Origin: a virus
Length of the DNA stretch: 38,329 nt
Virus record (IMG/VR): IMGVR_UViG_3300033997_000182
Span: 1 to 38,329 of that record
Direction: 5' to 3' (one strand)
Each line of letters starts with the position of its first letter. Positions within the stretch are counted from its first letter, which is position 1. Both the position numbers and the translations under genes were made by a program. The notes under the pieces were generated by a model that worked only from the letters and a program-made list of their open reading frames with translations, was not told the DNA's origin and did not search any database. Shown here in pieces: positions 2,734-32,230 of this stretch.

Positions 2734-3231
2734 TCAGTACCTATCCCGAAAAGCGGACTGGTTCCGTTCAGCAATCATCTTCACCAGTTCTTTCAGGTCA
2801 ACAACATCTAACCGGGTCCATTCGTTGTTGGCCAATCTCCAATCAACAGCATACCCATCAATCAGGGTAGCAGTTATCAGGGAATCACGAAGGGCGGCAA
2901 GGCTTGCCGGGTCCGCCTGGAAGACCATCCCCCGATACGTCACAGGCGCGTTTACAGCCTCTTGGTAGCGTTCTGCGGCCGTCTTGGCACCTATCCACAT
3001 CATCACCTTGTTTGACCACGTGTAGCCCCATCCGGGCCTGTCCTGGACGCTCGCCAGTTGTTCGGCCGTGTAGGGCGTTGCCGCCCCATCCTTGACCCAA
3101 TAAAGTTCATCCGACCAGACACCATCAACCCATTTACAACCAGTGGGGCAATTCATTTCAATCTCTTCTTCACTGGCAAAGACAGTCCCAACAATTTCAC
3201 CATCATCATTGTAATAACTAACATTTTTCAT
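2734..3231 (-). CDS. Tail-fibre-associated protein, DUF4376-like (165 aa)
   Basis: ATG at 3231 is three bases after the TGA of the 1000-aa fibre gene, with GAGGTG as ribosome site, so the two form one operon. The N-terminal part (MKNVSYYNDDGEIVG...) and the W-rich middle (GWGYTWSNKVMMWIGAKT) resemble small phage tail-fibre assembly or tip proteins. The last about 70 residues (PVTYRGMVFQADPASLAALR...YAVDWRLANNEWTRLD) match what I know of the DUF4376 domain found at the ends of fibre-related proteins. The role is probably a fibre chaperone or a small distal fibre subunit. Family recognition is from memory only. Confidence 0.65.
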   Translation of the reverse strand: MKNVSYYNDDGEIVGTVFASEEEIEMNCPTGCKWVDGVWSDELYWVKDGAATPYTAEQLASVQDRPGWGYTWSNKVMMWIGAKTAAERYQEAVNAPVTYRGMVFQADPASLAALRDSLITATLIDGYAVDWRLANNEWTRLDVVDLKELVKMIAERNQSAFRDRY

Positions 3232-3234
3232 AAA

Positions 3235-6200
3235 TCACCTCATTGAACACCAAAGGGCCAATGTTTGCGCCCCAAGGTATAAAGTTGTTGACGAACCCCA
3301 AATAATTTTTAGATTATGGGTGCCTGGACCTACTGTTGTGGCTTGTAGCATTTGGACCAAATCCTGACCGAAACCGATTTGACCAGTACCATACATGTCA
3401 ACACCATTTAATCGGATGATGAAGTTATAAAGCTTCTCACCTTGGGTATAAGTCTGTTTAGCCGACCAACCAATCAAAACTTTTGATTCGTATGGGACAG
3501 TAAAATTGACATCCATGACGGTAATTGCTTGACCGTCAGCACCGGTATAATTTGTGTTGTTGGTGAAAGTCCGAACAACAGTAGCGGATTCGCCAGCAAT
3601 TTTCAGGGTATCAACAGCCGCATTACCAATCTTGGCGCTATTGATAGCCGCATCACCGATGTAAGCCGTTCCAATAGCAGCAACTGACATGTAAGTGCCA
3701 ATGTTAGACGCAGTAATAGGGTTATCAGGTCTAACAGTATTGCTCGGTACCCATTCAGACCCCGGGGAATAGGGCGACAGTGTTGATTGTCCATCTGTTG
3801 CTCTACCAAAATAAGGTTGTAGCATCCAAGCATAACTATTAGATTCCGTTGACCAAGTTAGCCACCTACGCCATAGCACCCGGACTGATGTTGCGGATGA
3901 TGGCGAAGTTGAAAACCCTCCAACCAGTTGCCAAGTATTGATGTTCTTCGGATCACCTGCTGCCTGATCACATGCCCCCATGTTTGACGCTTGGACTAAA
4001 TTACCGTTGCGGTCATAGTAGAGCGCAAATAATTCTGATTGGCATCTATGATTTGCTAATCGTGCTGATAATTCATACCGGGTTGACCCGGCAATGGGGA
4101 TGTGATCTGACATGATGTCCACGTATTGAGGATCACCCGCAGTCGCTTTACCCGCACCATCGTAAAAAATAACAGAGGCATTAGCCTGATAGGGTTGCCA
4201 ACTCCAATTTTGTCCGTCCCGTTGTTGTTCCGTCATGTAATAAAACGCAGCGGAATTAGCACCCGCAACAGAGGTGTAACCCATTACAGACCATCCGCGA
4301 CCAATAAAACTTTCATTGGATGCGTTGTCCGTATTTTTAATCATGTTGGACGAATAGCCCATGTTTATCAGGTTCTGATTCAATGGGACACCAGCACCCA
4401 ACAAGACATTCCCCGCAGCATCCTTGACGGTCAGATTTCGGGTATCAATCTTTCCGGCAGTTATAGTGCCAATGTATGCTTCTGTAATAGCAGCACTATT
4501 GATAAAAGTTCCGACGTTGGCACTTGTAATCTTATTATCAGGTCTAACAGTATTGCTCGGCACCCATTCTGCGCCGGGTGAATAGGGCGTGAATACGGTC
4601 TGATTGGTGCCAGCTACACCAAGATACGGGTACAGCCACCAGCAGTAAGAGTTAACGCCACCATCAAGCGTGTCCCATTTCCGCATTGCGACCCGTGCTG
4701 TATGGGCACCAGCCGGCGCCACCCCGAAGACCTTACAGCGGTACCACTGCGACAAATCCCGGGCTGTCCCGTTTTCGGTCAGCGTCACATCTGCGGTTGG
4801 TCCCTCACTGATTGATGACCCAAGCTGCGCCCCCGCAGCGTCATACCAAATCAGGTACAGGCGCGGTCTTGCCCGATGCGACTGGACATAGGCACTGGCT
4901 TCGTACCGTTGTCCCACTACAACCGGGACAGGATCACTCAGAACCTGACCGTAATTGTTTACAGGATCGCCAGCTTCATCGGTCTGTTCGATGACAAAGG
5001 CATTGGTCCCGGTCGGAGCCCATCGACCATCTGTCCAACCAAAGTTCTTATAAGTGTAGTAGTTGTATCCGGTGCGCGTGAAAGTCGCCCAACCTTTACC
5101 GCCGTAATGTTCACCAGATCGGTTTTCGGTATTGACTAACAAGTTTCCGGACCGACCGGCATTGACATAAGTTTCAGCTAATGGCGTGCCTGCGGCAAAA
5201 ATAACATTCCCCGAAGCATCTTTGATGTCAAGACCGCGAGTGTCAATTTTATTGGCTGTGATGGTATTTGCGGCAAGGTGATTACCTGTAATAGTTCCAT
5301 CAACAATCAATTCGCCTCTATTCTTGCGGGTCAGGATAACATCGGTAAAATGGTATCCATCACCATTAGTTCCACTCGTTGCCGTGCCCGATGGTTTGGC
5401 GATACTGATCCAAACTTTGATGTAGACAGTATCGGCATGGTCAACCGTAGCGGACCCGTTTAGTTCTTGATAGCCTGATGTGGCGGCTAATCTTGTCGCC
5501 GCCACTGACCATTTAAACGCAACTTTATCTTTGTTGTAGTGGACTATACCAATCACCATGTTGTAATTAGCTGTTGTAAAACCACGCGGAATACATTTAA
5601 CAGATGCCCAGAATTGTTCGCCGAAATCAACCGGGACAAAATCACCATAATAGGCATCCCTGTTGTCAAAATTAAAACAGGCGTGCCCCTTGTAAGCATT
5701 TGCTGATAATGTCGCCCAATCAAACCCGGTATTAGTCGCGGTTAGGAACGATGCGGTCCAGCCCGAAGTATCCCGATCACCAAGAGGATTCCGGCAGATG
5801 TTGCGGACATCACCAATCACTGCCAAAGGGGCATACAGGGCGGATGTTGATAAGGCCGATGACGGGACTGATTGACCAACCAGCCGAGCGCCATCAAGGT
5901 TAGCCGTAGCAATCCGAGCATCAACCGCACTATCAAAATTGTCAGTGGTTGCGCTCAATGGCGCCGAATAATTAAGCGTAGTCGGACCAAAACTATCGAC
6001 GTGGGCAACCCTCACCCAATAAGTTGTGTTATGGGCAAGTCCGGCAATTTCAAACCCCGTGCCATTTACAGACCCTGCGGTTGTCCAAGGGCCTGTTGAT
6101 GCTGGTGCTGTCTGTACTAATGTGTATTGATAGTCATAGTCAGGGCACGCAGTCCACTTGACATTGATTTGTTTTGTGCTGCCTGTAAGACTAATTCCAG

Positions 6201-6237
6201 TCGGCGCGGCCGGAGCAACATTGCTAAATGCTGGCAT
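3235..6237 (-). CDS. Tail fibre / J-related receptor-binding protein (1000 aa)
   Basis: ATG at 6237, with AGGAAC upstream and a TAAATA box at 6257-6262. Residues about 10-95 form a fibronectin-III-like domain (PTGISLTGSTKQINVKWTAC). Later come short collar motifs of the lambda J C-terminal type (GTITGNHLAANTITANKIDT, DIKDASGNVIF). A module of roughly 250 residues then occurs twice, each with a carbohydrate-binding-like beta domain and ending in SPGxEWVPSNTVRPDN. A distinct C-terminal domain (about 890-1000) probably contacts the receptor. It looks like the distal half of a long J or central-fibre protein encoded as its own gene, on the opposite strand to J. The probable role is host recognition at the tail tip. 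Confidence 0.8.
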   Translation of the reverse strand: MPAFSNVAPAAPTGISLTGSTKQINVKWTACPDYDYQYTLVQTAPASTGPWTTAGSVNGTGFEIAGLAHNTTYWVRVAHVDSFGPTTLNYSAPLSATTDNFDSAVDARIATANLDGARLVGQSVPSSALSTSALYAPLAVIGDVRNICRNPLGDRDTSGWTASFLTATNTGFDWATLSANAYKGHACFNFDNRDAYYGDFVPVDFGEQFWASVKCIPRGFTTANYNMVIGIVHYNKDKVAFKWSVAATRLAATSGYQELNGSATVDHADTVYIKVWISIAKPSGTATSGTNGDGYHFTDVILTRKNRGELIVDGTITGNHLAANTITANKIDTRGLDIKDASGNVIFAAGTPLAETYVNAGRSGNLLVNTENRSGEHYGGKGWATFTRTGYNYYTYKNFGWTDGRWAPTGTNAFVIEQTDEAGDPVNNYGQVLSDPVPVVVGQRYEASAYVQSHRARPRLYLIWYDAAGAQLGSSISEGPTADVTLTENGTARDLSQWYRCKVFGVAPAGAHTARVAMRKWDTLDGGVNSYCWWLYPYLGVAGTNQTVFTPYSPGAEWVPSNTVRPDNKITSANVGTFINSAAITEAYIGTITAGKIDTRNLTVKDAAGNVLLGAGVPLNQNLINMGYSSNMIKNTDNASNESFIGRGWSVMGYTSVAGANSAAFYYMTEQQRDGQNWSWQPYQANASVIFYDGAGKATAGDPQYVDIMSDHIPIAGSTRYELSARLANHRCQSELFALYYDRNGNLVQASNMGACDQAAGDPKNINTWQLVGGFSTSPSSATSVRVLWRRWLTWSTESNSYAWMLQPYFGRATDGQSTLSPYSPGSEWVPSNTVRPDNPITASNIGTYMSVAAIGTAYIGDAAINSAKIGNAAVDTLKIAGESATVVRTFTNNTNYTGADGQAITVMDVNFTVPYESKVLIGWSAKQTYTQGEKLYNFIIRLNGVDMYGTGQIGFGQDLVQMLQATTVGPGTHNLKIIWGSSTTLYLGAQTLALWCSMR

Positions 6238-6256
6238 AAGTTCCTATTCTTTTAGC

Positions 6257-6280
6257 TATTTAGTCCAAGCTCACTAAATA
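6257..6280. promoter_or_regulatory. Divergent pair of TAAATA boxes between fibre gene and gene M
   Basis: Minus box 6257-6262 (ACTAAATAGCTAAAAG) serves the fibre gene at 6237. Plus box 6275-6280 (CACTAAATAACTAAAAAGG) serves gene M at 6296. The two halves form a near-symmetrical back-to-back arrangement, with 12 bases between the boxes. Confidence 0.6.
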
Positions 6281-6295
6281 ACTAAAAAGGATCTT

Positions 6296-6640
6296 ATGGC
6301 TAATGCTGCTTTACCTCTGCCGGATCGGATTTCAAACAATCCTAAAATCACGCGAAACGAACGGGTAAAAAAGGCTCAACTTGGTGATGGTTATGAGACT
6401 ATTGCGCCGCGTGGGAAGAATTGGGTTTATTTATCCCTTGAACTTAACTGGGAAGTGTTGACCTATGCCGAACTAACTACTATTCAAACGGCAATCAACA
6501 CAATTAGTCCAGATGGGTATTTTACTTACTCACTCCCATCCGATGGTGTATCCCGTAAATGGCGTATCGAGAACTTCGATTACTCCCTGTTCAATTCCTA
6601 TGCTAATGCCAGTATGAAATTACGGGAGGTGTTCGCGTAA
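6296..6640 (+). CDS. M: Minor tail protein M-like (114 aa)
   Basis: ATG at 6296 after AAAAAGGATCTT. The start LPLPDRISNNPKITRNERV, the phrase QLGDGYETIAPRGKN and the C-terminal end ANASMKLREVFA are typical of lambda gpM-type minor tail proteins. These sit at the tail tip between the tape measure and L. The length is near the lambda protein. The TAA overlaps the next ATG (TAATG), and the order M-L-K-I is conserved here, which supports the call. Confidence 0.85.
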   Translation: MANAALPLPDRISNNPKITRNERVKKAQLGDGYETIAPRGKNWVYLSLELNWEVLTYAELTTIQTAINTISPDGYFTYSLPSDGVSRKWRIENFDYSLFNSYANASMKLREVFA

Positions 6641-7149
6641 TGCCTATTCCATCAGCTAAATTGCGAACCCTCGCACTATCATCGGGGGTTATCGAGCTTT
6701 ATGAAGTCGCTTATAAATCCAACCCAATAGTCAGGTTTGCCAACCTGGAAGAAACAGGGTCAACGATTGTCTATCGCGGCTATACCTACACATGTGCGGC
6801 TATTGGTATCACTGGGGTCGAAAAAACCGCCGATGGAACATTACCGAGACCGTCAATTTCCATCGGCAACACTGCCAGAACCATCGCCAGCATCTTCGGG
6901 ACTACTGATTTAGTCGGAGCGAAGATTACACGGATTATCACTCTGGCCGAATACCTTGATGGTCAACCCGGGGCGAATACTGCCAACTACCAATCTACAA
7001 CTTTTGTCGTTGAGCAAAAATCCTCAGAAACGTATGACCAGATAACCTATTCCCTCGCTACGCCCCTGGAAGTGCTGGGTAAGCGTCTACCACGTCAGCA
7101 AGCCACGCAGACTGTTTTCCCCGGAGTGGGTCGCTATGTCGGGTTCTGA
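6640..7149 (+). CDS. L: Minor tail protein L-like (169 aa)
   Basis: It starts within the TAATG overlap with M. Sequence such as IVRFANLEETGSTIVYRGYTYT and ADGTLPRPSISIGNTARTIAS is characteristic of gpL-type tail-tip proteins. In lambda the C-terminal part of L carries cysteines for an iron-sulfur cluster. This protein appears shorter, ends VFPGVGRYVGF, and lacks the cysteine-rich tail, so the cluster domain may be absent. Its 3' end overlaps K by 14 bases. The role is tail-tip assembly, where it joins the M, I and J complex. Confidence 0.85.
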   Translation: MPIPSAKLRTLALSSGVIELYEVAYKSNPIVRFANLEETGSTIVYRGYTYTCAAIGITGVEKTADGTLPRPSISIGNTARTIASIFGTTDLVGAKITRIITLAEYLDGQPGANTANYQSTTFVVEQKSSETYDQITYSLATPLEVLGKRLPRQQATQTVFPGVGRYVGF

Positions 7150-7837
7150 TTGGCTCCAAGACCTTCAGGCACACGCAAAAGATGCATACCCCGAAGAGTG
7201 CGTTGGGTATGTCAAAGATGGTGTGTATGTCCGCCTGGACAACAAGCACCCCGAGCCAACCAAGCATTTCAGGATTGCTCAATCCGACCTGTACGGGGTC
7301 AATCCTGATGTTGTCTGGCACTCGCACCCATCAACGGGACAGGCTAACCCTCATTGGCCATCTATGGCTGATTTACGGCTGTTCTATTCAACTCCCATCC
7401 GATGGGGAATTATTGCCACGGATGGGGTTGAGGTCGGACCAATGGTGATTTTTGACGACAATAACCCATCACCCCTTATCGGGCGTGAATACATTTGGGG
7501 TGTCCAAGACTGCTATTCACTCATTCGTGATTGGTATAAGCAACAGGGTATTATTCTAAAAAATTACCCAAGGGACTTAAAAGAATTTCAATCTGGGAAA
7601 GATTTGTATGGTGATAACTTCCGGGATGCTGGGTTCATCGAAGTCGGGATGAAGGATTTACAGGTTGGTGATGTGCTATTGATGTCGATTATGTCCAACA
7701 AGATAAATCATGCTGCGTTGTATCTTGGCGGAAATGAAATAGTCCATCATCAAATCAATAGGTTTAGTTGTTCTGACAGGTTTGATAAATGGGAAAGATT
7801 TTGTGTGAAAGTGGTTAGGTATGAGAAAAATTCATAA
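7136..7837 (+). CDS. K: Tail-tip protein K: JAMM plus NlpC/P60 domains (233 aa)
   Basis: Two enzyme domains are visible. The N-terminal Mov34/JAMM half has Glu21 (PEECVGYV), His62 and His64 (WHSHPSTGQ) and Asp79 (PSMAD), the zinc-protease signature. The C-terminal NlpC/P60 half has Cys126 (QDCYSLIRDWY) and His192 (NHAALYLGG). This architecture is standard for lambda gpK, which is needed for tail-tip assembly; the peptidase domains probably act on tail proteins or on peptidoglycan during entry. ATG at 7136 lies inside the end of L, and the stop lies inside I, a tight translational coupling. Confidence 0.92.
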   Translation: MSGSDWLQDLQAHAKDAYPEECVGYVKDGVYVRLDNKHPEPTKHFRIAQSDLYGVNPDVVWHSHPSTGQANPHWPSMADLRLFYSTPIRWGIIATDGVEVGPMVIFDDNNPSPLIGREYIWGVQDCYSLIRDWYKQQGIILKNYPRDLKEFQSGKDLYGDNFRDAGFIEVGMKDLQVGDVLLMSIMSNKINHAALYLGGNEIVHHQINRFSCSDRFDKWERFCVKVVRYEKNS

Positions 7838-8687
7838 TGTGAAATTTATTGGTGAAATGCGTGAGCTATCGGCTGAACTGGTCCCCATAAATGCCGGTAA
7901 TCTGCGTGATTTGATTTCCGGTGTCAGGGTGCTATTCCCTGCGTCGGATAAGTATTTTTCACCAAGCCGTCAGATGTGTATTGGTGTGGTGATTGGCGAA
8001 CAGGTTAAATGGTTGACCCGTGATGAAGCCCTATTACAAATCCCGGAATGTGATTATTTGATTGTTGGTGTCGATTACGATGGATCCGCAGGCGTTGACA
8101 TCGCCGCAATTATCATCGCCTATGTTATCCAATGGACCATCGGCCGCATCGTCACCCTGTATTTCACGGACAAGCCACAAACCAAGGATGAGCAACAGGA
8201 CAAAGACAGCTATTTGCTCAACGGTCCTAACAACTCCACAAGGGCAGGGGAGGCGGTTCCGTTGGTCTTCGGTCGGTTTAGATGTGGGTCTGTGGTCATC
8301 AGTCAGGCGCTGTCATCCGAGCGTATGGGGACCAGTCTGCGTGATGAGTGGTCATTCACCGGGACAGGCACATTTACGGGAAATTTCTTGACCAATGATG
8401 CCAATAATGTTTCGCTGACCATCACATCAATTGATGTGCAGCAGTATTACAACGGGCCTAAAACTACGCACTCGGTCCCGTTCAGCAATTTGGCCCTGTC
8501 CTCTAATCGGACTTTATCGGTCAATGCGGATGGATCTTGGTCCTTGACCCAAACGGGGGTTGTTGACATCAGTAATTTGATTATTACTTACTACTGTTCA
8601 GGCACGACAACAGCCGGCACATACACCAGTCAGTCAACAGCAGTAATCAACATCGGTCCAACGCCAGATTACAGCTATCAAGGCTAA
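7821..8687 (+). CDS. I: Tail assembly protein I-like with C-terminal extension (288 aa)
   Basis: ATG at 7821 overlaps K by 17 bases. The first about 150 residues match gpI-type proteins: a ubiquitin-like start MRKIHNVKFIGEMRELSAEL, then a glycine/alanine/isoleucine hydrophobic segment VDIAAIIIAYVIQWTIG (about residues 93-110). The middle DSYLLNGPNNSTRAGEAVPLVFGRFRCG is the well-conserved block of this family. The last about 100 residues, rich in T/S/N/G, form a beta-like domain not found in lambda I. In lambda, I works with J, K and L at the tail tip. It is the last gene of this cassette; a new TAAATA box starts right at its stop codon. Confidence 0.85.
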   Translation: MRKIHNVKFIGEMRELSAELVPINAGNLRDLISGVRVLFPASDKYFSPSRQMCIGVVIGEQVKWLTRDEALLQIPECDYLIVGVDYDGSAGVDIAAIIIAYVIQWTIGRIVTLYFTDKPQTKDEQQDKDSYLLNGPNNSTRAGEAVPLVFGRFRCGSVVISQALSSERMGTSLRDEWSFTGTGTFTGNFLTNDANNVSLTITSIDVQQYYNGPKTTHSVPFSNLALSSNRTLSVNADGSWSLTQTGVVDISNLIITYYCSGTTTAGTYTSQSTAVINIGPTPDYSYQG

Positions 8688-8690
8688 ATA
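8685..8690 (+). promoter_or_regulatory. TAAATA box for the portal cassette
   Basis: GGCTAAATAACCTAAAAGG overlaps the stop codon of gene I, with 20 bases between box and the portal ATG at 8711. It matches the extended TAAATANNNTAAARRGG form. Confidence 0.55.
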
Positions 8691-8710
8691 ACCTAAAAGG
8701 TATCTGATTT

Positions 8711-10000
8711 ATGATTATTTCGGGTTATGAACTAAATGACCTTGTTGATTTACTCAATAATAAAAATGCTGTCGCTGCCCAAGTTGCGCGAGGTCTTTAC
8801 ACGGGTGAGCAACAGGATTTGACAAAAAAGTATCTGGATGACCCTTATACCGGGGTCAAGAACTGGAAAGAGAAGAAGATTGTTCCGATTTGTCGAAACA
8901 TCACAGAGCAAATTATTGATAAATCCGGCCTTTTGTTTAAGGATGGGCTCCCCTCCTTCACACTCCAACAGGATGGGGTAATTCAAGAGGCAACACGATT
9001 TATCACTGATTGGGTTGATTTCTATGATTTTCAGTCGAAAATACAAGCCCTTGACACTACTGTGCGACTACTCAAATCAGCAATGTTGCTGATTGGGTAT
9101 GACATGGATGACGGCCAATTCACTTTCGACATCCTCCACCACGGCAACAGTGTGGTTATTCACGATAACCGTTTGCGCCCACAAACTCTTATCCATCGCA
9201 CCGGCAATAAGACCTATCAAGTTATTACCAAGGAATTTTATTTCGACCTAAAAGAAGATGAAGTTGGTAATGTTAAATTGGTTGGCCAGCAGGATAATAC
9301 TTTTGGGATTATTCCAGTTGCGGTATTCCACGATAAAAACGCGCCAATCTATGGTTTTTTACATAATGTAGACACGCTGTTATCAAATTTCAACTTGGCC
9401 CTGAATAAGCAATTATCACTGTTGGATTACTCGCTCGCCTGGAAGCAGCAATCAACCCTGTTTAGTAATGTTCGCTTGCCGGAACAATTGACCCTTGGTC
9501 CGGGGTCAGTGGTTGAGGTAGAACAAGCTGACGCAAGCATGAATGTTTTTATCGAATACCGCACCCCTGACATTGATGTCAATGCTGTAAATGACATCTT
9601 GGTTAACTGGTCTAACATGGTCGCGGGTGCTTATTCCGTGCGCCTGGAAGCCGATACATCCAACGTCACCAGTGGTTTTCAGTTGGTAGTAAAAGAAAAC
9701 GCCAATTTAGAACTGCGCAAGGAACGTCAACGTCCTTTTGAGGCAGGTTTTAACCAGATGTGGCGCGTGATGGCAACCATTATCAAGATTGTCCACAACA
9801 TTGATTTGTCTGGGTATGATTTTGTTATCGGGTTCCCGGCACCAGCATTGCCAATCAACGAAAAAGAAGTTGAAGAAATCTGGTCGATTAGAATTGATAA
9901 CAAGCGAGCAACGGTCAAAGACTATTTGATGACTGTTCGCGGGATGACTTCGGAAGAAGCCGATGCGAAAATAATTGAACTGAATGGGGGTGCGCAATGA
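8711..10000 (+). CDS. Portal protein, SPP1 gp6-like (429 aa)
   Basis: Composition and length fit the SPP1 gp6 type of portal. The N-terminal helical part includes VARGLYTGEQQDLTKKY. The phrase NITEQIIDKSGLLF is typical of the clip/wing start. A long middle wing segment (TFDILHHGNSVVIHD) follows. The C-terminal helical crown region shows NLELRKERQRPFEAGFNQMWR and PLPINEKEVEEIW. The portal forms the dodecameric ring at the capsid vertex through which TerL pumps DNA. Its place after tail gene I, far from terminase, is unusual. The TGA overlaps the next ATG (ATGA). Confidence 0.85.
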   Translation: MIISGYELNDLVDLLNNKNAVAAQVARGLYTGEQQDLTKKYLDDPYTGVKNWKEKKIVPICRNITEQIIDKSGLLFKDGLPSFTLQQDGVIQEATRFITDWVDFYDFQSKIQALDTTVRLLKSAMLLIGYDMDDGQFTFDILHHGNSVVIHDNRLRPQTLIHRTGNKTYQVITKEFYFDLKEDEVGNVKLVGQQDNTFGIIPVAVFHDKNAPIYGFLHNVDTLLSNFNLALNKQLSLLDYSLAWKQQSTLFSNVRLPEQLTLGPGSVVEVEQADASMNVFIEYRTPDIDVNAVNDILVNWSNMVAGAYSVRLEADTSNVTSGFQLVVKENANLELRKERQRPFEAGFNQMWRVMATIIKIVHNIDLSGYDFVIGFPAPALPINEKEVEEIWSIRIDNKRATVKDYLMTVRGMTSEEADAKIIELNGGAQ

Positions 10001-10365
10001 TACCTAACATCAAATTTGTGGCTGGGTCAAACGCCATCACCTACCGCCAAGGCACCGATGCTGCTATTTCGTTGACCGTCAAGGACGCAACTAATACCCC
10101 TATTGATGTCAGCGGGTGGGTAATCCGCATGGTGGCAAGACCTAATTATTCCGCACCGACTGCCATTATCGACTTATCGACATCCAATGGTGCTATTGTC
10201 ATTTCAGGGTCAACTATCACCATCAATTTCGCACAAGATTGTGTAAAGGCGTTTATTCGCGAACAATCTTTGGTTGGTGTTTATCAAGTAGAAGCTACTG
10301 ATCTGGCCGGAAAAAAGCAGGTTCTTTTAGATGGCGCATTTACTGTCTTAAAGGACTTGGTATGA
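9997..10365 (+). CDS. Ig-like/BppU-N-like virion protein (122 aa)
   Basis: ATG overlaps the portal stop. The sequence ([57 protein letters not shown]) is an all-beta Ig-like pattern. Such modules are seen at the N-termini of phage baseplate or fibre proteins and in small decoration proteins. It lies between the portal and a collagen-like protein with ATGA overlaps on both sides, so the three are made together. The probable role is capsid or fibre decoration or an adaptor; specific function unknown. Confidence 0.65.
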
Positions 10366-10826
10366 GTGATGTCAGCATTGATTTAGTTATCAGTCCATCT
10401 ATTTCAACTGTCGCGGTTTCTGTTCCTGGACAAGTCGCAACGGTGGAGGTGGTCGCGGGGATTCCGGGACCGCAGGGTGTGGCCGGTCCAACAGGTCCGG
10501 CAGGCGCACAAGGCCCGCAAGGCGTAGCGGGACCGCAAGGCGTGGCAGGTCCGGCAGGCCCAAAGGGTGATGCCGGGGCCACAGGTCCGGCAGGTCCAGC
10601 AGGCGCACAAGGGGCGCAAGGTGTCAAGGGTGATACCGGTGCTACGGGTCCACAAGGCCCCCAAGGTATTCAAGGTCCACAAGGGCCACAAGGACCGGCC
10701 GGCGCAGATGCGCCAAGGGGCGTGTATGTCGGGGCTGTTCCCCCCGAAGTGTCTTCAACTCCTTTTTTCTGGGTCGAAACTCTTGGGGCTGGGAATTATC
10801 GTTTATGGTTTAACGACGGAGTATAA
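10362..10826 (+). CDS. Collagen-like repeat protein (154 aa)
   Basis: The N-terminal segment [20 protein letters not shown] is beta-rich. Residues about 34-117 are an uninterrupted run of G-x-y triplets ([15 protein letters not shown] and variants, with [10 protein letters not shown] inside). The C-terminal 35 residues ([18 protein letters not shown]...YRLWFNDGV) form a small capping domain. Such proteins form trimeric collagen-like rods in phage fibres or capsid decorations. The repeats make the DNA strongly repetitive, and the long open frames on the other strand here are compositional shadows. It overlaps its upstream neighbour by ATGA. Confidence 0.85.
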
Positions 10827-10829
10827 ATT

Positions 10830-11174
10830 ATGGCTTTACAAAATCTAATGGGCAATCTGGCGTTGGACGCAACATCCCAAGACATCAAGACACTTATTCA
10901 AAATCAATCAGTGGTGTTAGATGACATCGGGGAATTGACCGGATCACTAAATTATCTGACTACCATTTTAGCCAATGGGGTATTGCCAAAAAATACTTTG
11001 GGGGCTGGAATGGTCGACCTATCCCGGACAACAAGTAATGCCGTATCGCAACCAATCTATACAACGATGCGACAGGTCCATTCAGGCGCTGTCGGCGTCG
11101 ATTTGATTATGGTCCCGTTCAACTATTCGACGATTGCGGCCAATACAATTTATCAACAATTTATTTTCGGTTAA
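10830..11174 (+). CDS. Unknown structural-cassette protein (114 aa)
   Basis: ATG at 10830 is three bases after the collagen-like stop. The N-terminal part is helical (LATDATSQDIKT-like region, residues about 8-45: ALDATSQDIKTLIQNQSVVL). The C-terminal half is mixed beta, with SGAVGVDLIMVPFNYST. No catalytic motif or signal peptide is visible. It sits between the collagen-like and kelch-like proteins in one cassette, so it is probably a virion or virion-assembly protein such as a fibre-connector. I do not recognise a family. Confidence 0.6.
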   Translation: MALQNLMGNLALDATSQDIKTLIQNQSVVLDDIGELTGSLNYLTTILANGVLPKNTLGAGMVDLSRTTSNAVSQPIYTTMRQVHSGAVGVDLIMVPFNYSTIAANTIYQQFIFG

Positions 11175-11183
11175 GGTATAAAA

Positions 11184-12635
11184 ATGAGTATTATTTCACG
11201 TCCTAAAAAGATTTTGGCCCTAAAAGTCGTCGAAACCGTAGGTATCAATCCATACGGTAATGCGGGTTCTGGTGCTGGTGTCACTGGCGATAACGTCCAT
11301 GATTGGATGCCCAATGATGATAATTTTTATTCGACCCTATCAACCACATCAGCACAACGGTATTCCGCATCAGAAAATGCTTGGATTGCCCTACCATCAC
11401 CCGCCCTTGGTGGGACGTTCGGGACTGGAACCTGTACCGAATCAATGGCCTATGGTGCGCCGAATGGTGTGATAGTCCAGACTGCCACGGGTGGTAATAC
11501 CCAACAAATCAATACCAGCATCACTCTTGCCGCAAACCTTGTTGGGTATAAGGTCAAAATTGTGGAAGGGCCGAATGCTGGGACCACCCACACGATTGCC
11601 TATAACACTATTGGCGCCAATGCGTCGATTGTTCTAACAGCGCCAGCATCGGTAAACTTTACATCGGCGTCTAAATTTATTCTGGTCACTGGCAGCTATT
11701 GGGTTTTCAATGCCGGGACTCTGTCGTCTTCGTCTTTCCGGGTCTACGATAACGCAACTAATGCTTGGACCAGCCGCAGTATTACCGGTCTACCTGCCAC
11801 ATGGGCAACATCGGGTCAATTACTGCGTCAGCATAGTATCGATGATAATTATGCTTCGGGAAGCGTAGTATCTGCCACGTCAACAACTTTGGTGGTCAAC
11901 GGTTTGACTGGCACGGGCTACAACTGGACTAACTATGAGGTGGAAATTGTTTCTGGGACTGGTGCGGGGCAATTCCGGGTTATTTCTGCCGGGTCAACAT
12001 CCACACTGACCGTTGCGACCGCCTGGACAACCATTCCGGACGCAACATCAACTTATGTCATCAAGGGGGACCGCAATGCCCTGTATCTGATGGGCAATGG
12101 TGCCGCGACGGTGTACAAGTTTGGCATTGCTGCTAACACTTGGGCCACGATCACCCCGGGTACTGGCAGAGGTGGCGTTTTTGCTGCTGGTGGCACTGCG
12201 GACATCATCAAGGATAATCCTGATTGGACGGTCCCTCTGGTTGCTGCTGGTAAGATAGGCGGTCAAAACGGTCGATACGTTTATTCATTCCGTGGCAACG
12301 GTACAAGCAACCTTGACATTTATGACATTGCTGCTAATACTTGGTTGGCCTATGGCTATGGTAATGCGGGTGGTGAAGGTATGTCCACGGTTGTTTGCTC
12401 AATTGCGGATGGTAAATTTATCTATGTCCAAAACGGTTCAACGGGCCGGATCCATAGATTTGATACAACTGCCAATGCGCTGTTGCCTTGGGTGTATAAC
12501 GTCTATCCGCAGGGCACCGGGGTCAGCGGTGATAAAATGTGGGTAGTCAAGTTCAAAGATGGCGGGGATGTTATTACATGGATTTATACATTAGTCCATT
12601 CCGGCAACATCGTTCAACGGATTTGCGTTCTATAA
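11184..12635 (+). CDS. Kelch/beta-propeller-like virion protein (483 aa)
   Basis: Repeated blades of the form Y/F-x-x-x-x-N-x-W are visible: RYSASENAWIALPSP, RVYDNATNAWTSRSI, KFGIAANTWATITP, DIYDIAANTWLAYG, HRFDTTANALLPWV. Each is followed by G-rich turns, the pattern of kelch-type propellers. An inserted beta segment (residues about 95-150 and again 215-290, phrases VEGPNAGTTHTI and VSGTGAGQFRVIS) resembles tail-spike-type insertion domains. It has no signal peptide. It closes the cassette behind portal and collagen-like genes and is followed directly by a terminator. The probable role is a receptor-binding or decoration protein on the particle surface; the carbohydrate ligand is unknown. 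Confidence 0.7.
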   Translation: MSIISRPKKILALKVVETVGINPYGNAGSGAGVTGDNVHDWMPNDDNFYSTLSTTSAQRYSASENAWIALPSPALGGTFGTGTCTESMAYGAPNGVIVQTATGGNTQQINTSITLAANLVGYKVKIVEGPNAGTTHTIAYNTIGANASIVLTAPASVNFTSASKFILVTGSYWVFNAGTLSSSSFRVYDNATNAWTSRSITGLPATWATSGQLLRQHSIDDNYASGSVVSATSTTLVVNGLTGTGYNWTNYEVEIVSGTGAGQFRVISAGSTSTLTVATAWTTIPDATSTYVIKGDRNALYLMGNGAATVYKFGIAANTWATITPGTGRGGVFAAGGTADIIKDNPDWTVPLVAAGKIGGQNGRYVYSFRGNGTSNLDIYDIAANTWLAYGYGNAGGEGMSTVVCSIADGKFIYVQNGSTGRIHRFDTTANALLPWVYNVYPQGTGVSGDKMWVVKFKDGGDVITWIYTLVHSGNIVQRICVL

Positions 12636-12637
12636 AT

Positions 12638-12667
12638 AAAAAGGGGTCCGATTGGACCCCTTTTTTA
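12638..12667. terminator. Bidirectional intrinsic terminator
   Basis: AAAAAGGGGTCC, short loop, GGACCCCTTTTTT directly after the kelch-like stop. It also lies at the 3' end of the converging GIY-YIG gene. Confidence 0.9.
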
Positions 12668-13192
12668 CTTCAACCATTTATCCAAAGTTGATTTAGATTC
12701 TGGACTCATTGTCTTATTGATCAACGGTTTAATTTTCCGTTTATCGTTGGTGCGGGTCCAAGTGCGCCCGGCATGTTGCTTTGATTTCCCGTTGATGACA
12801 CTACTAACGTGCCCGGGGTTGTAGCCCTGTGAAATAATGTCGGCTCGGCCATCACAGATAACAAAATCATCTTTTGTAGCAGAATAACCAATGGTCAACC
12901 CTTTATAGCTATTATTGTGCTTGCCGGTGTAAGAGGTCTGTTTGTTAGTTAGTGGGCTGCCTTTATCTTTGTGGACTTGGATAAAATACATTTCTGTCTT
13001 TTTGGCCAGATCAATACTCGCACAATCAATAACTTCGACCCTTGATAAGCCGTGTGATTTATAATGCTTCTTCCAGCTTTTTGACCGGTTTAGTTTGTCG
13101 TGGGGACGGCGATTTGATCGAGAGAAACCCACATAAAAGCAGTTAGAGTTATTATCGAAGTGTAGATAAACGCAAGGTTGGTTGGTAGTCAT
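12665..13192 (-). CDS. GIY-YIG endonuclease 1, free-standing (175 aa)
   Basis: ATG at 13192 with GGGAATTAAATT upstream. The N-terminal nuclease core shows CVYLH...CFYVGFSRS (the GIY/YIG strands), a catalytic-type Arg in RPHDKLNRSKSW, and Glu in KKTEMYFIQVH. The C-terminal part has a DNA-recognition module (IISQGYNPGHVSSVINGK, then HAGRTWTRT) of the type seen in intron-encoded nucleases and T4 seg proteins. No intron or interrupted gene surrounds it, so it is a free-standing homing-type endonuclease. It sits between the kelch cassette and the tail chaperone cassette. Confidence 0.85.
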   Translation of the reverse strand: MTTNQPCVYLHFDNNSNCFYVGFSRSNRRPHDKLNRSKSWKKHYKSHGLSRVEVIDCASIDLAKKTEMYFIQVHKDKGSPLTNKQTSYTGKHNNSYKGLTIGYSATKDDFVICDGRADIISQGYNPGHVSSVINGKSKQHAGRTWTRTNDKRKIKPLINKTMSPESKSTLDKWLK

Positions 13193-13244
13193 AATTTAAT
13201 TCCCTTTGAACTTTTAGTTGCGTAAGAAAAATCTCTTACATAAC

Positions 13245-13250
13245 TATTTA
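13245..13250 (-). promoter_or_regulatory. TAAATA box upstream of GIY-YIG endonuclease 1
   Basis: The minus strand reads CTGTAAATAGTTATG, 52 bases from the start codon, farther than the usual 12-30. The assignment to this gene is less certain. Confidence 0.35.
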
Positions 13251-13283
13251 CAGTTTTTAGAGAAAGGAATTAAATCCGCAGTT

Positions 13284-13314
13284 AAAAAGGGGCCTTTCGG
13301 CCCCTTTTATTTTT
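13284..13314 (-). terminator. Intrinsic terminator of the tail chaperone operon
   Basis: GGGGCC-TTTC-GGCCCC with A/T-rich flanks. On the minus strand it follows the end of the T frame (stop at 13307-13309), and A5 on the plus strand gives the required U-tract. Confidence 0.85.
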
Positions 13315-13699
13315 CCATCATGTCGGAATTGTGCGACTGAACAAGATTGTCTATCAGGAATAAAAATTCAATCTGCCACCAATCTAATTTACCAACGTCC
13401 TCAATCATCATCCTGATGTCAGACATAGTTAGCGGGTTGGGACCACTAAATCCGTTTGATTTGTACCGGTAAGATAGGTCATACAAGTTTTCCAACATGA
13501 TAATCCATCCGGGTGGATTTTTCCGTTCTGATAACCGTTTACCAGTAATACGGTAGCGGGCTTCATCCGGGTCAACACCTTGGTTTATCAGGGTGTTTAT
13601 CGCAACTTGGTGATGGGCGCCGACTGATGCCCCGTTGATGTTAGATTCTTGATTTAACCTATCCTTGATGTGTTTTTTTAGTTCCTTGGCGCAGTCATC
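13307..13699 (-). CDS. T: Frameshift extension of the tail assembly chaperone (T part of GT)
   Basis: A reading frame without a good start of its own extends from the end of the G frame to TAA at 13307-13309, adding about 130 residues (DDCAKELKKHIKDRLNQE ... DLVQ-type end IDNLVQSHNSDMMEK). The C-terminal part has the W-W and L-rich pattern seen in T domains (MIEDVGKLDWWQIEFLFLI). It lies exactly +1 (equivalently -2) relative to G, and the two meet at TTTTTTCGATGA. The product is expected only as the G-T fusion of about 254 residues, which in lambda recruits the tape measure to the tail tip. An internal ATG at 13498 is a much weaker explanation. Confidence 0.75.
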   Translation of the reverse strand, partial: DDCAKELKKHIKDRLNQESNINGASVGAHHQVAINTLINQGVDPDEARYRITGKRLSERKNPPGWIIMLENLYDLSYRYKSNGFSGPNPLTMSDIRMMIEDVGKLDWWQIEFLFLIDNLVQSHNSDMMEK

Positions 13700-13712
13700 G
13701 AAAAAAGACCTT
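13690..13712 (-). promoter_or_regulatory. Programmed frameshift site in G/GT
   Basis: The mRNA-sense core is GTC TTT TTT CGA TGA in the G frame. Moving to the T frame needs +1 (TTT re-pairs on TTC, followed by GAT) or -2 (the mechanism reported for phage Mu at GGGGGGCGA, with the same CGA context). A -1 shift would meet a stop after seven codons, so the usual lambda-type -1 shift is excluded here. Confidence 0.7.
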
Positions 13713-14069
13713 TCGATCGGAAATAACCTCTTGGATTTGTTGGATGTATTCGGCGGGTAAGCTCAAAATGAATGCTTCGATAGCTTCGGGGGTCTGCGCC
13801 AGTTCTTCGACGCCCTCCACAGCCAGCACCCGCGCGGCCAGAATTTGACGCTCTGTGCGGTCGATAGCGTTCACATAATCCAGCTTTTCAACATCTGTGG
13901 CGTTTTCGGTTGGCATCTGTGGAGCATCAATAAGTGCTTGGCGAATGACTTCCTTGACTGCCTTATCTTCTGCCGGCTTAACCTTGACAAAAACGGGGAG
14001 TTTTTCGCCTGATACAACATCAATCAGTTGGACAGTAGCGGGCTTAGTCAGTAGGTCAGTAATCTTCAT
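13695..14069 (-). CDS. G: Tail assembly chaperone G-like (124 aa)
   Basis: ATG at 14069, GGAG upstream, and a TAAATA box at 14107-14112. The product is acidic and helical (MKITDLLTKPATVQLIDVVSGEK; VKVKPAEDKAVKEVIRQAL; LAVEGVEELAQTPEAIEAF) and matches the short chaperone that precedes tape measure genes in long-tailed phages. It ends VISDRKVFFR with TGA directly after a run of six T and CGA, a slippery stop context. It lies back-to-back with the tape measure gene rather than upstream on the same strand, which is unusual. Confidence 0.8.
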   Translation of the reverse strand: MKITDLLTKPATVQLIDVVSGEKLPVFVKVKPAEDKAVKEVIRQALIDAPQMPTENATDVEKLDYVNAIDRTERQILAARVLAVEGVEELAQTPEAIEAFILSLPAEYIQQIQEVISDRKVFFR

Positions 14070-14106
14070 AATACATAATCTCCTTTTTCAATAAGTTCTC
14101 CAACTC

Positions 14107-14132
14107 TATTTAGAGGGGAAGGCCAGTAAATA
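14107..14132. promoter_or_regulatory. Divergent pair of TAAATA boxes between chaperone and tape measure
   Basis: Minus box 14107-14112 (CTCTAAATAGAG) serves G, 37 bases from its ATG. Plus box 14127-14132 (CAGTAAATACCGTAAAGAGG) serves the tape measure, 17 bases from its ATG. Confidence 0.6.
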
Positions 14133-14149
14133 CCGTAAAGAGGGTATTT

Positions 14150-17100
14150 ATGGTCAATAACATTGGTCAAATTGATGTCAAAATCAATACTGGCGACATT
14201 ACAAAGGCAATCGCCGAGCTTAATAATTTGGGCAAAGCTGCGTCCAATGCTCAATCACGTCTTGATGGGTTGAGTAAAACAAACTTGTCTGGACTCACCG
14301 GCCAATTTTCCGCACTGAATAAAGAATTGTCATCGGTTGATAATTCTGCCGCCAAGGCGGCTAAATCGATTGATGGTATCGCAGGTAAATCATTAGGTGG
14401 TTTCGGCAGTCAGATTACCGTCATCAATAATAATTTCACACAAACCATCACTGCGGTATCACAGGTTAACGCACAAATCAACAAAATTGGTGGTGGTGCC
14501 GCCGGTGCGCTGGGTGGTGTGGGTAAATTGGTTGGTGGATTGGCTGCGCTAAAAGTTGGAATTGAAGTAGCCGAAGAACTTTATAAAATCGGCAAAGCCG
14601 CCTACGATGCTTATCAACCCATACAATCATTGACTATGGGTCTAAATGCCTTGGGTAAAAATGGCGCTGTTGAATTAGCCGCAATGCGTCAACAGGCCCA
14701 ATCCCTTGGTATTGTTTTCTCCGATACCGCCAAGAGTCAATTACAGTGGGCAGCAGCTACCCAGCAGACTAATTTAGAGGGCGACAAGGGCGCCAAGGTT
14801 TTTGAATCTATTTCGGGGGCTATTCGTCTTTTTGGTGGCGGAACAGAAGAGGTTAACGGGTCGCTAAAAGCACTAACCCAGATGATGAGCAAGGGCACGG
14901 TTCAATCCGAAGAACTTAAAGGCCAGTTAGGTGAAAGATTACCCGGTGCTTTTAGGTTGATGGCTGATGCTCTGGGGATAAGCACGCGGGAACTTACCGA
15001 TGCCCTGAAAAATGGGATGGTTGAATCAGGTTACGCGATCGAAAAGCTATCGGACTTGATTGATAAAAGGTATGGCGAAGGCATCAAAAATGCTGCTAAT
15101 ACTACACAATCACAGTTAAACCGGATGAAAAATGATTGGCAAACAATCATGGCCGGTATTGGCCGGGAAATCGATGCGGCTGTGGGTAAGATTGCCACGC
15201 TTATCAATCAATGGGGTGTTTTGCGTGGGCTTGGCGCAGGTTTCGAGGGCGGGGGTATCACCGATAACATCAATAATCTTGGTAAAGTTGATGGGACCGG
15301 GGCGGGTAAGGCTAATCGGATTTTTTCCGACGCTAACACGCTGTTAGAGGCCAAAGGACAGCAGGGGATTAAACAAGGTTCGCGCCGGCCGCTGTTTATC
15401 GGGGACCGGACAACAGAGACCGTGGCTGAGGCCATCGGACGTGATGCGGCTGATACGTCCACCAAGTTGTCAGCACTGCGCGCCCGGGGTGATACGCAGT
15501 CCGCGCAGTTCAAGGCTTTGGAGCAGCGTTTAAAAATTATTCAAGACGCTTCCAACGCCAACAAGGACATTAAAGCGCAGGGCGCCGATCGTGCTGCGGC
15601 AGAGGGCAGGGCGCGACGGGATGCGGCTGAGTTTGCCGATAGTGCCAAGGCGTCACGGGAGAGACAAGACGCGATCAGGTCGGGGGACCAGCGTGCCTTA
15701 CTCGGCCTGGACATCCAAAAAGCCCGTAAACAGATTGAGGATGCGGCTAAAACTATGTCCGGGCGTGCGCTGGCCGAATTCCGGAACGACAGGGAAGAGT
15801 ACATCGCCAGTCGTGAGGCACAGATTAAAAAGCTTGACGAAAAGGGTTCCCGTGCTGGTGCGCGTGCTGCGTCCGAACGTGATAGGCAGGCAAACAGAGC
15901 CGATGACATTGTTAGGGGGGGGCAGACTGAATTATCCCGCCTGCGTGAGCGTTATCAAAATCTAACAGATCCGGATGGGATTGAGGGCGAAATCGAGCGT
16001 GTAAAACGTCTATTCGCCGAGCGCAGAGCAGGTATTGCCGAACTGACCAAGCTAACCGCCAAGGAAAAAGAAGAAAAGATTGCCGCCCTTGATGCCGAAG
16101 AACGTGAGTCCATCGAACAAATCAAAAAGATTGATGCGGTCAACGATAGCAAAAAAACTCAACGGAAAATTGAACAAGAAATCAATGAAATTATCCGTAG
16201 GCGTGAAACTCTGTCTAATAAGTTAGATGAAAGTTCGGCTGAAAGACAAGCTCAATTATCGGCCATGAGTCAAGTCAAGGATAATCCCAAGCCATTTTTT
16301 AGTATCCTCGATACCCGATCACCTTTTGCCAAGGGCTTAAACGAAGCCTTTGAAAAGGTCGAAAAAAAGTATAAAGAACTAAATGATAAAATAATCAAAG
16401 ACAGCTTAAAAGCAGATGACGACATTGCCAAGGAAGCTAAACAGCTAGGCGAGGCTCAAAGGGCACTGTGGCGGCTCAAGCCTACAGACACCAATAAGGG
16501 CGAGGTCGAGGCACTGGAACGCAAGGTCAACGAGTTGGAAAATAGTCTAGCCAACCTACGCGCTGGCCGGGCAAAGCTTGATGGTGCTTTGGCGCAAAGT
16601 CGTCGCCAAGAGTCCGAAGAAATGGGGACTACGAAAGAGACTTACTTTGCCCAATACAACAGCAGTCGCCGGTTAGATGTTGGTATTGATGCCGGTGCCA
16701 CTGCTTACTTGGAGACCGTCAAAAATAAAGCCGAACGCGCCAAAGATGTAATGATGAGTTTTGGCCAAGCAACCGAACAGGCCCTCATGTCGGGTAGTTG
16801 GACAGAGGCGAAAAATGTTGCCAAGACGTTTTTTGGTTCGCTGCTTAAACAAATTCAACAGACTATTGTTCAGCTACTTATCGTCAAACCGTTGATGGAA
16901 AAGATTGCCAACTTTGCCAATAACAACTTCAAGGCAGGTGGGACAGACTTTTTCGGCGGACTGCTACAAGCAATCGTTGGCGGGTCTGTGACCGGCAGTG
17001 TTGGCAGCACGATGACACCCGGGACCGCATCTGGTGGGCAATACTCTTTATCATCTGGTGGTGTCAAGCTTGGCTATAACGCGCTTGGTGGTGTCTTTGC

Positions 17101-17437
17101 TGGTGGCCAAAAGGTCAACTATTACGCCGATGGTGGCGTGTTTGATCGTCCTACGGTCTTCGGTGGTGCTGGTGGGCTCAACGTGATGGGCGAGCGTGGC
17201 GCAGAGGCTGTGATGCCGCTCAAACGAGACGCCAAGGGCCGTTTAGGCGTTGCTGGTGGGTCATCAACATCCATCACTAACCAACTGTCTATAACGGTTC
17301 AGGGTAATGCCGACAAGGACACCATTGCGGAAATGGAACAGCGTTTAGCAAAACAGATGACCGAAATCAGTCGTCAACAGGCCAATAATGCTATTCAGCG
17401 AGCAAATCGACCTGGAGGCGCCAACTATCGCAAGTGA
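14150..17437 (+). CDS. Tail tape measure protein (1095 aa)
   Basis: ATG at 14150. The protein starts with polar helices (MVNNIGQIDVKINTGD, ELNNLGKAASNAQSRL), followed by an alanine/glycine hydrophobic segment (about residues 110-150, GGGAAGALGGVGKLVGGLAAL). Residues about 160-300 contain the tape-measure N-terminal domain motif (QLQWAAATQQTNLEGDKG, VQSEELKGQLGERLPGAF). A very long charged coiled-coil region follows (about 440-880). The glycine-rich C-terminal end has YADGGVFDRPTVFGGAGG and GERGAEAVMPL, characteristic of lambda H-type proteins. It sets tail length; about 1095 residues fits a tail of roughly 160 nm by the usual ruler relation. It is transcribed from its own TAAATA box, opposite to the chaperone. 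Confidence 0.95.
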   Translation: MVNNIGQIDVKINTGDITKAIAELNNLGKAASNAQSRLDGLSKTNLSGLTGQFSALNKELSSVDNSAAKAAKSIDGIAGKSLGGFGSQITVINNNFTQTITAVSQVNAQINKIGGGAAGALGGVGKLVGGLAALKVGIEVAEELYKIGKAAYDAYQPIQSLTMGLNALGKNGAVELAAMRQQAQSLGIVFSDTAKSQLQWAAATQQTNLEGDKGAKVFESISGAIRLFGGGTEEVNGSLKALTQMMSKGTVQSEELKGQLGERLPGAFRLMADALGISTRELTDALKNGMVESGYAIEKLSDLIDKRYGEGIKNAANTTQSQLNRMKNDWQTIMAGIGREIDAAVGKIATLINQWGVLRGLGAGFEGGGITDNINNLGKVDGTGAGKANRIFSDANTLLEAKGQQGIKQGSRRPLFIGDRTTETVAEAIGRDAADTSTKLSALRARGDTQSAQFKALEQRLKIIQDASNANKDIKAQGADRAAAEGRARRDAAEFADSAKASRERQDAIRSGDQRALLGLDIQKARKQIEDAAKTMSGRALAEFRNDREEYIASREAQIKKLDEKGSRAGARAASERDRQANRADDIVRGGQTELSRLRERYQNLTDPDGIEGEIERVKRLFAERRAGIAELTKLTAKEKEEKIAALDAEERESIEQIKKIDAVNDSKKTQRKIEQEINEIIRRRETLSNKLDESSAERQAQLSAMSQVKDNPKPFFSILDTRSPFAKGLNEAFEKVEKKYKELNDKIIKDSLKADDDIAKEAKQLGEAQRALWRLKPTDTNKGEVEALERKVNELENSLANLRAGRAKLDGALAQSRRQESEEMGTTKETYFAQYNSSRRLDVGIDAGATAYLETVKNKAERAKDVMMSFGQATEQALMSGSWTEAKNVAKTFFGSLLKQIQQTIVQLLIVKPLMEKIANFANNNFKAGGTDFFGGLLQAIVGGSVTGSVGSTMTPGTASGGQYSLSSGGVKLGYNALGGVFAGGQKVNYYADGGVFDRPTVFGGAGGLNVMGERGAEAVMPLKRDAKGRLGVAGGSSTSITNQLSITVQGNADKDTIAEMEQRLAKQMTEISRQQANNAIQRANRPGGANYRK

Positions 17438-28742: not shown

Positions 28743-29282
28743 ATGGGAAATCGTCCATTTTGGCAGAACAATCCGGACCCGGCAATGCGGGTGCCTTGGC
28801 ACGTTAGATTGGGTATTTTCCCCGATTTTGGAGGCTGTGAACATAACCATACATACATCTGTCCCCATTGTGGGTATGTTGGTAAATTGGCCAATGGTAA
28901 TAGCATTTTCCGACACTTTGGCTATTGTAAAAAGAAGGGCAATTTAATGAGTAAAGAAGAATTACAAGAGGTGTTAGACGCAAGACCAAGGCCATCTAAA
29001 AAAATGCTGATGAATGAGTATGGGGAGTTTATCCTATCTCACGAAGAACTATTACAGGTCGCGTCAACAATTGCCCTAAACAAGACTGACCCAAGGTCAG
29101 CCGTGTGTCTGAAATTACTCTTCGACTATTACGATAAGGTCAACAATAAAAAGGATGAGGCTGAACAACTTGGATTTACTCAATTCGTTTTTGAAGTGGT
29201 CCCGCCAAAGCCGGCAATAGCAGACCTATCCGACACGAAGTTTATCGATGTGACTGATGCGCAGTTGAAAAAGGTTAAGTGA
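28743..29282 (+). CDS. Terminase small subunit-like protein with zinc motif (179 aa)
   Basis: ATG at 28743 after AAAGGGGAAGAGTT. It lies directly before TerL, overlapping it (TGATG), the usual TerS position. The N-terminal half carries a zinc-finger-like CPHCGYVGKLANG...FRHFGYC motif. The C-terminal half is helical (SKEELQEVLDARPRPSKKML, then EELLQVASTIALNKTD). It would bind the packaging site on concatemeric DNA. The sequence is not a classic TerS family match for me, so the call rests mainly on position. Confidence 0.6.
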   Translation: MGNRPFWQNNPDPAMRVPWHVRLGIFPDFGGCEHNHTYICPHCGYVGKLANGNSIFRHFGYCKKKGNLMSKEELQEVLDARPRPSKKMLMNEYGEFILSHEELLQVASTIALNKTDPRSAVCLKLLFDYYDKVNNKKDEAEQLGFTQFVFEVVPPKPAIADLSDTKFIDVTDAQLKKVK

Positions 29283-30571: not shown

Positions 30572-30574
30572 AAC

Positions 30575-30604
30575 AAAAGGCCCACAAAGGTGGGCCTTTT
30601 TTAT
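30575..30604. terminator. Bidirectional intrinsic terminator after TerL
   Basis: AAAAGGCCCACAAAGGTGGGCCTTTT type hairpin between TerL and the converging GIY-YIG gene. Confidence 0.9.
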
Positions 30605-31176
30605 TGGTCGATAACTCTTTTGAAAGTGTGGCCTTTATGTGTGTGGCGCTTTTGTTCTTTTCCAGAAAGCAGACGGTACACGGAAGGCGGTTTGAACCCA
30701 TTTTTTCTTAAATCCTCCGGACCAAACATTATTTTTATCTCACCGGTTATTGCGTTAGTAGCGATGATTTTGCCTTTAAATGATTGGCTGTCTATCCCCT
30801 TTTTACCATAAGAAGGGTTTTTATCACCAAGCTTAGAAATCCGACAGCGCAACCGCGCTTCATCACTCATAACTAACCCAACACAACCATCCCCACCATC
30901 TGTTAAGTTAACTAATTCGTGCCCATCCGCTCTGAACGCTTCTATAAAGAATTTTTCAGCAGATAGCGCGGATTGTTCGGTTGCGTGAACAAATAGGATT
31001 TCGGACCTATAACCATGCTTGGCGACAACTCGGTTCCACCATTTACTCCTATGTCTGCCTTTTTCTAGAACTCGCCTCGCCACACCCTTGCCGACATAAA
31101 AAACTTTGTTGGTGTCAAGTCTAATGTGGACGTATGTATAAAATTTCCCGGATTTAATAGCACCCCTAACATCCAT
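30601..31176 (-). CDS. GIY-YIG endonuclease 4 (191 aa)
   Basis: ATG at 31176 with ACGGAGCAAAA upstream. The core shows FYTYVHIRLDTNKVFYVGKG, Arg in ARRVLEKGRH, and Glu in AEKFFIEAFRA. A glycine-rich turn NLTDGGDGCVGL follows and resembles the one in endonuclease 2 (NVSDGGEGGYGL), so these two are probably related copies. The C-terminal recognition module is DLRKNGFKPPSVYRLLSGKE followed by HKGHTFKRV. Free-standing, inserted between TerL and the tail tube gene. Confidence 0.88.
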   Translation of the reverse strand: MDVRGAIKSGKFYTYVHIRLDTNKVFYVGKGVARRVLEKGRHRSKWWNRVVAKHGYRSEILFVHATEQSALSAEKFFIEAFRADGHELVNLTDGGDGCVGLVMSDEARLRCRISKLGDKNPSYGKKGIDSQSFKGKIIATNAITGEIKIMFGPEDLRKNGFKPPSVYRLLSGKEQKRHTHKGHTFKRVIDQ

Positions 31177-31196
31177 TTTTGCTCCGTTCTTTGATT

Positions 31197-31247
31197 TATT
31201 TAAAGTTATTCTACTATACCCAATAAAAATAGTGAAGAGCCTAAATA
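31197..31247. promoter_or_regulatory. Divergent TAAATA boxes between GIY-YIG 4 and the tail tube gene
   Basis: Minus box 31197-31202 (TTTAAATAAATC), 20 bases from the ATG of GIY-YIG 4. Plus box 31242-31247 (GCCTAAATATGG), 28 bases from the ATG at 31276. Confidence 0.5.
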
Positions 31248-31275
31248 TGGTTGAAGTTTAGAAAAAGGATTCACT

Positions 31276-32175: not shown

Positions 32176-32192
32176 TCATAATAAACACATCT

Positions 32193-32219: not shown

Positions 32220-32230
32220 TTGCCTGTCAA

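Follow-up and report, generated by a model that had tools for sequence, protein, structure and literature searches.

The 38,329-base window analysed here is the complete IMG/VR virus record IMGVR_UViG_3300033997_000182, whose genome encodes tail, head, terminase and integrase genes. On its minus strand lie two overlapping open reading frames (ORFs), G and T, and the junction between them is the subject of this report. G (13695..14069) encodes 124 amino acids ending in ..DRKVFFR* and is assigned to the short form of the tail assembly chaperone (TAC-N) by a family profile built without the window and by Foldseek. Its 3′ end reads GTC TTT TTT CGA TGA. The putative shift site is the stretch TTT TTT CGA TGA (G frame, 13695..13706), where we infer a +1 slip from UUU to UUC with CGA in the A site. 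T is in the +1 (equivalently -2) frame relative to G; the frame is open for 151 codons from 13762 to a TAA stop at 13309-13307, and the part beyond the shift (13307..13702) forms the C-terminal extension. The first ATG, GTG or TTG in the frame is codon 89, an ATG at 13498, and T has the form of a second chaperone ORF that lacks its own start and is reached by frameshifting. The -1 frame after G closes after seven further residues (SMTAPRN), which excludes the canonical -1 shift of tail assembly chaperones (TACs), in which T is open in the -1 frame. The earlier note on this DNA had described both the frame relation and the closed -1 route, and the minus-strand reading bears it out. In the overlap a zero-frame UUU is followed by CGN and the product lies in the +1 frame, the sequence pattern of the UUU_CGN class; in-frame TTT_CGN is rare in the window genome (5 of 9020 codon pairs). 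Translation through a +1 shift gives a G-T fusion of 253 amino acids with the junction ..DRKVFFDDCAK...

The relationship of G and T to known chaperones has to be traced indirectly. Direct searches of INPHARED, IMG/VR and GTDB with window G or T return no match, nor does a single-sequence scan with the tape measure protein. Searches that start from the terminase and the tape measure protein lead to related phages, several of which contain T-like ORFs according to a T-domain profile. That profile was built up from Rhodobacter phage RcXuper, in which both G and T match PHROGs annotated as tail assembly chaperone. Family profiles built from 37 relatives, with the window left out, were then run against the 439 ORFs of the window. 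G comes out on top (E 5.5e-8 with all relatives, 3.3e-9 with the nearer clade) and T is the best of the 439 for its profile (E 7.9e-4, all relatives). The pair is more than a chance find, because window-free profiles select exactly these two ORFs. An AlphaFold2 model of the fusion from a shallow alignment is confident in the G domain and poor in the T domain (mean predicted local distance difference test score 64.7). Against viral models, Foldseek ranks a tape measure chaperone from phage Seurat first for this fusion (E 3.3e-4), with the chaperones of Sansa and K1H as the next named matches; a PDB fold search with the model gave no significant match. By sequence profile and by predicted fold, window G and T thus make up a two-part phage tail assembly chaperone. 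Some weaker matches were set aside: phrog_12189 matches T (E 0.014) and is absent from 50 related records, while weak G matches in L037 and L064 are Neck1 proteins and one in L014 matches a scaffolding family, all three being chance hits.

The same frame relation recurs in relatives. In L101, related to the window by terminase, portal and capsid, G ends in ..DRSNFFR* at AAC TTT TTT CGC TGA and T is in the +1/-2 frame. Site-based scans of IMG/VR for pairs with a long G and a long T in the +1/-2 frame added L211, L241 and L260 with the same AAC TTT TTT CGC TGA, L275, L283, L290 and L292 with CAC TTC TTT followed by CGT, CGC, CGC and CGA, respectively, and TGA, and L285 with GCA TTC TTT CGC TGA. 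A site-independent protein search with T of the L101 group recovered exactly the four contigs that the site scan had given for that group. Site-blind protein searches of INPHARED with G of L292 and L285 gave seven further phages, six of them -1 and one, Limnohabitans phage DC31, +1/-2 (AAC TTT CGA TCC GAG TGA). Curvibacter phage P26059A, a relative of DC31 with a 50% identical G, has AAC TTT CGA CCC AAA TGA, also +1/-2, and its T frame opens just two codons ahead of the site. Eight prophage TACs, all -1, from genomes of 768 species of Burkholderiales and of the class of Endozoicomonas served as controls. The -1 members frequently have an ordinary -1 slip sequence at the shared junction, such as GCA AAT TTT (Effie, L309, L313), CGT TTT TTC (RHph_X2_24) or GAT TTT TTC (L154). 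T has no annotated coding sequence in DC31 (L305, PQ492658.1, 1165-1954), and only a short fragment of it is annotated in Rhizobium phage P106B (L306, NC_023566.1, 1201-1964); each phage has the two frames open and conserved.

In-frame TTT_CGN in the overlap separates the two kinds of junction. It is present at 10 of 10 distinct +1/-2 loci and at none of 29 -1 loci; among the loci that did not come from the site scan (window, L101, DC31 and P26059A) the figures are 4/4 against 0/29 (Fisher p = 2.4e-5). Five TAC lineages, the window included, are in the +1/-2 frame, and three of these have UUC or AAC before UUU: UUC_UUU_CG[T/C/A]_UGA in L275, L283, L290 and L292 and in L285, and AAC_UUU_CGA in DC31 and P26059A. 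The conserved part of the site is UUU_CGN and not the hexamer: the earlier note, which described a hexamer followed by CGA, had asked for conservation in relatives, where the UUU_CGN core recurs and the hexamer does not.

This difference bears on the direction of the shift, which the earlier note had left between +1 and -2. All of the +1/-2 sites compared here are compatible with tRNA-Phe slipping by +1 from UUU to UUC. In a Mu-like -2 shift, tRNA-Phe on the second UUU would slip back two bases within the run of six U, giving a product one Phe longer. Re-pairing is perfect on the T6 of the window, and Mu does use -2, as claimed and as confirmed from the literature (PMC3498833, PMC5009743), at about 2.2% (PMC3498833). 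Only the window and the L101 group allow such re-pairing; it is impossible in L275/L283/L290/L292, L285, DC31 and P26059A, since UUC_UUU_CGN and AAC_UUU_CGA offer no two matching upstream bases, yet these sister sites keep UUU_CGN. The comparison thus favours +1 over -2. A stem-loop is predicted directly downstream in the L101 group (z-scores -1.7 to -7.4 over the 65 nt that begin at the stop codon) and would suit the -2 route, whereas no structure is predicted after the shift site of the window (z about +1). All in all, a -2 shift is an unlikely source of the window fusion, and the G-T fusion is probably made by a +1 frameshift at UUU_CGN. Of the earlier proposals, then, a shift into the +1/-2 frame stands and its Mu-like form is disfavoured by three of the five lineages; the +1 slip of tRNA-Phe gains from the relatives, while the slow CGA codon invoked for it is unneeded, some other sites having CGC or CGT. 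We infer the occurrence of the shift, its +1 direction and its efficiency.

The same comparison bears on transcriptional slippage on T6, which would yield mRNAs that lack one U or have two extra. Both the window and the L101 group do have the homopolymer; however, six T is short for transcriptional slippage, and a long conserved run is not found. T6 is confined to these two, and the other +1 lineages read TTCTTTC or AACTTTC, where slippage is not expected because there is no run. This explanation is very improbable. Two features of single lineages were considered as shared stimulators and rejected: the downstream stem-loop, predicted in the L101 group and not in the window, and an internal Shine-Dalgarno sequence (GAAAGG before the window site), for which nothing comparable was seen near the other +1 sites when these were inspected by eye, with no statistic. 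The L101-group DNA just past the shift site shows unusual conservation at synonymous positions and can form a stem-loop; CCTACTGGTTCTGCGAGT is identical in L101 (11354-11395), L211 (1164-1205) and L241 (3624-3665).

Two further explanations dispense with a shift at this site. T could be translated on its own from the ATG at 13498 inside its frame, or not be made at all. An in-frame ATG is indeed present, but it lies about 20 residues into the conserved T domain (the family match begins at T-frame residue 69, near 13558) and would give a product of just 63 amino acids. Nor do the T frames of relatives have starts near the junction: DC31 has none within 150 nt of the G stop and the first ATG of P26059A is at +133. 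This possibility is very improbable. It is least probable of all that a sequencing error or a pseudogene, with an extra base in the T run, breaks one ORF into two. A one-base change would join the frames, and the virus record was produced by assembly; against this, unrelated assemblies and named isolates (DC31, P26059A) share the frame relation at the homologous place, and ORFs of 1000-1095 amino acids are intact elsewhere in the window.

Several points weigh against a +1 shift at UUU_CGN. The site was part of the search pattern for L211, L241, L260, L275, L283, L285, L290 and L292, so that four of the ten loci are free of this bias; the window itself was chosen by the earlier note for its site, which leaves three loci strictly blind, and loci within one lineage are not independent. 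The T6 run of the window is compatible with -2. The L101 group keeps TTT as the first Phe codon at the site, though TTT makes up only 13-14% of its Phe codons and TTC about 86%; in the window and L101 lineages a -2 shift may be at work, or the first codon may influence efficiency. The match of window T to its family is modest (the E value of 7.9e-4 becomes 0.027 with the nearer-clade profile), and window G and T are very divergent, with an end branch of 2.9 in the tree. The support as a whole comes from comparison of sequences and predicted structures.

In the proposed mechanism, most ribosomes would terminate at TGA and produce G alone. On a few, tRNA-Phe on the second UUU, with CGA waiting in the A site, would move one base forward and re-pair with UUC; reading would resume at GAT and yield the 253-residue G-T fusion. 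Homology suggests the same roles as in lambda: G would cover the tape measure protein, and the tail tube subunit would be brought in by the T domain.

When G and T are joined in one alignment (38 rows, 253 columns), the tree requires five changes of the +1 label, and well-supported branches compel no fewer than four of these. L275 and L292 fall in a clade with Acinetobacter phages, DC31 and P26059A stand beside Pasteurella and Mannheimia phages, and L285 lies among Rhizobium phages; these neighbours are -1. The position of the window is unsure because its branch is so long, and the window may or may not represent a separate +1 origin. Since five +1/-2 lineages interleave with -1 relatives at a homologous junction, shift direction seems to have changed there several times; the tree is silent on the polarity of each change.

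The neighbourhood of G and T is itself unusual. The tape measure gene (14150..17437, plus strand, 1095 amino acids; Pfam TMP_3 1.1e-22, phrog_2335 1.6e-42) adjoins G/T and diverges from it, while in L101 and other relatives G/T lies directly upstream on the same strand. A putative terminator, a GC hairpin with a T run (AAAAGGGGCCGAAAGGCCCCTTTT, 13285..13308, minus strand), overlaps the T stop; it is symmetrical and readable on the plus strand too. Immediately 3′ of T, before collagen/kelch-type genes, is an ORF (12665-13192, minus strand) with weak similarity to GIY-YIG or homing endonucleases. A TAAATA box 45 nt upstream of G (14107..14112, minus strand) is a candidate late-promoter element. 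Sense-strand TAAATA boxes occur within 60 nt upstream at 13 of 24 gene starts picked by eye, against 4 in the antisense control and a random-window expectation of 0.6 on average (maximum 6 in 5000 draws). Further examples are at 6257-6262 (-), 6275-6280 (+), 8685-8690 (+), 14127-14132 (+), 32231-32236 (+), 32668-32673 (+) and 36059-36064 (-). They resemble the T4-late-type promoter element (TATAAATA) and stand ahead of single genes or short operons. The structural genes (2734-17437 and 29279-36039) are unusual in order and orientation: 20 kb separates portal (8711) from terminase (29279), the connector genes (34324-36039) and the capsid gene point in opposite directions, and G/T diverges from the tape measure gene. 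Individual promoters could permit this layout; misassembly may also lie behind it.

Variety of shift direction among tail assembly chaperones is not new: -1 is used by most, -2 by Mu and probably +1 by the haloarchaeal myovirus HSTV-2 (PMC5009743, PMC3498833). HSTV-2 stands beside the window as a virus whose TAC probably uses a +1 shift. Lambda G/GT shares with the window a short G, a frameshifted G-T and a place beside the tape measure gene, and profile and fold link the window pair to such chaperones; lambda and most relatives use -1, whereas the window is +1/-2 with G/T opposite in strand to the tape measure gene. The Mu T frame is likewise +1/-2. The Mu site, given as GGGGGGCGA in the earlier note, would have a homopolymer before CGA as the window does; the TACs homologous to that of the window differ in lacking such a run and retaining UUU_CGN alone. 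Listeria phages PSA, A118 and A500 also use +1 in a structural gene, tsh, at CCC_UGA (PMC5009743), but that gene encodes the tail tube protein. The closest likeness of the site is to influenza PA-X, where +1 shifting at UUU_CGN was established by sequencing of the junction peptide, on published reasoning like that used here and with CGN likewise preferred in the A site (PMC3498833), and to the plant amalgaviruses, for which UUU_CGN +1 shifting is proposed (PMC5052127). These share P-site UUU, next base C, A-site CGN, the +1 direction and the lack of an obligatory stimulator; they are RNA viruses of eukaryotes, whereas the sites described here are in dsDNA phages, where a stop follows 1-4 codons past the site. 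A search of an open-access library for the string UUUCGN yielded no phage paper, as judged by titles and abstracts. Within that library, the UUU_CGN site in phages and the apparent repeated change of direction within one TAC family would be new.

Frameshifting is commonly studied on TAC genes, and the known cases are mostly -1. It is on balance probable that UUU_CGN is a general +1 site on bacterial ribosomes and that the TACs of tailed phages have switched between -1 and +1, either way, at least four times, the +1 form always with UUU_CGN and matching the eukaryotic RNA viruses. If true, the class would extend from those viruses to bacterial ribosomes, where its mechanism is testable with E. 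coli reporters, and CGN in the A site, rather than a rare codon, would be what matters, since CGA, CGC and CGT all occur. For annotation, UUU_CGN near the end of G is worth looking for, given that T was missed in DC31 and is partial in P106B. Sister -1 and +1 TACs at one junction would provide a natural experiment on the evolution of shift direction.
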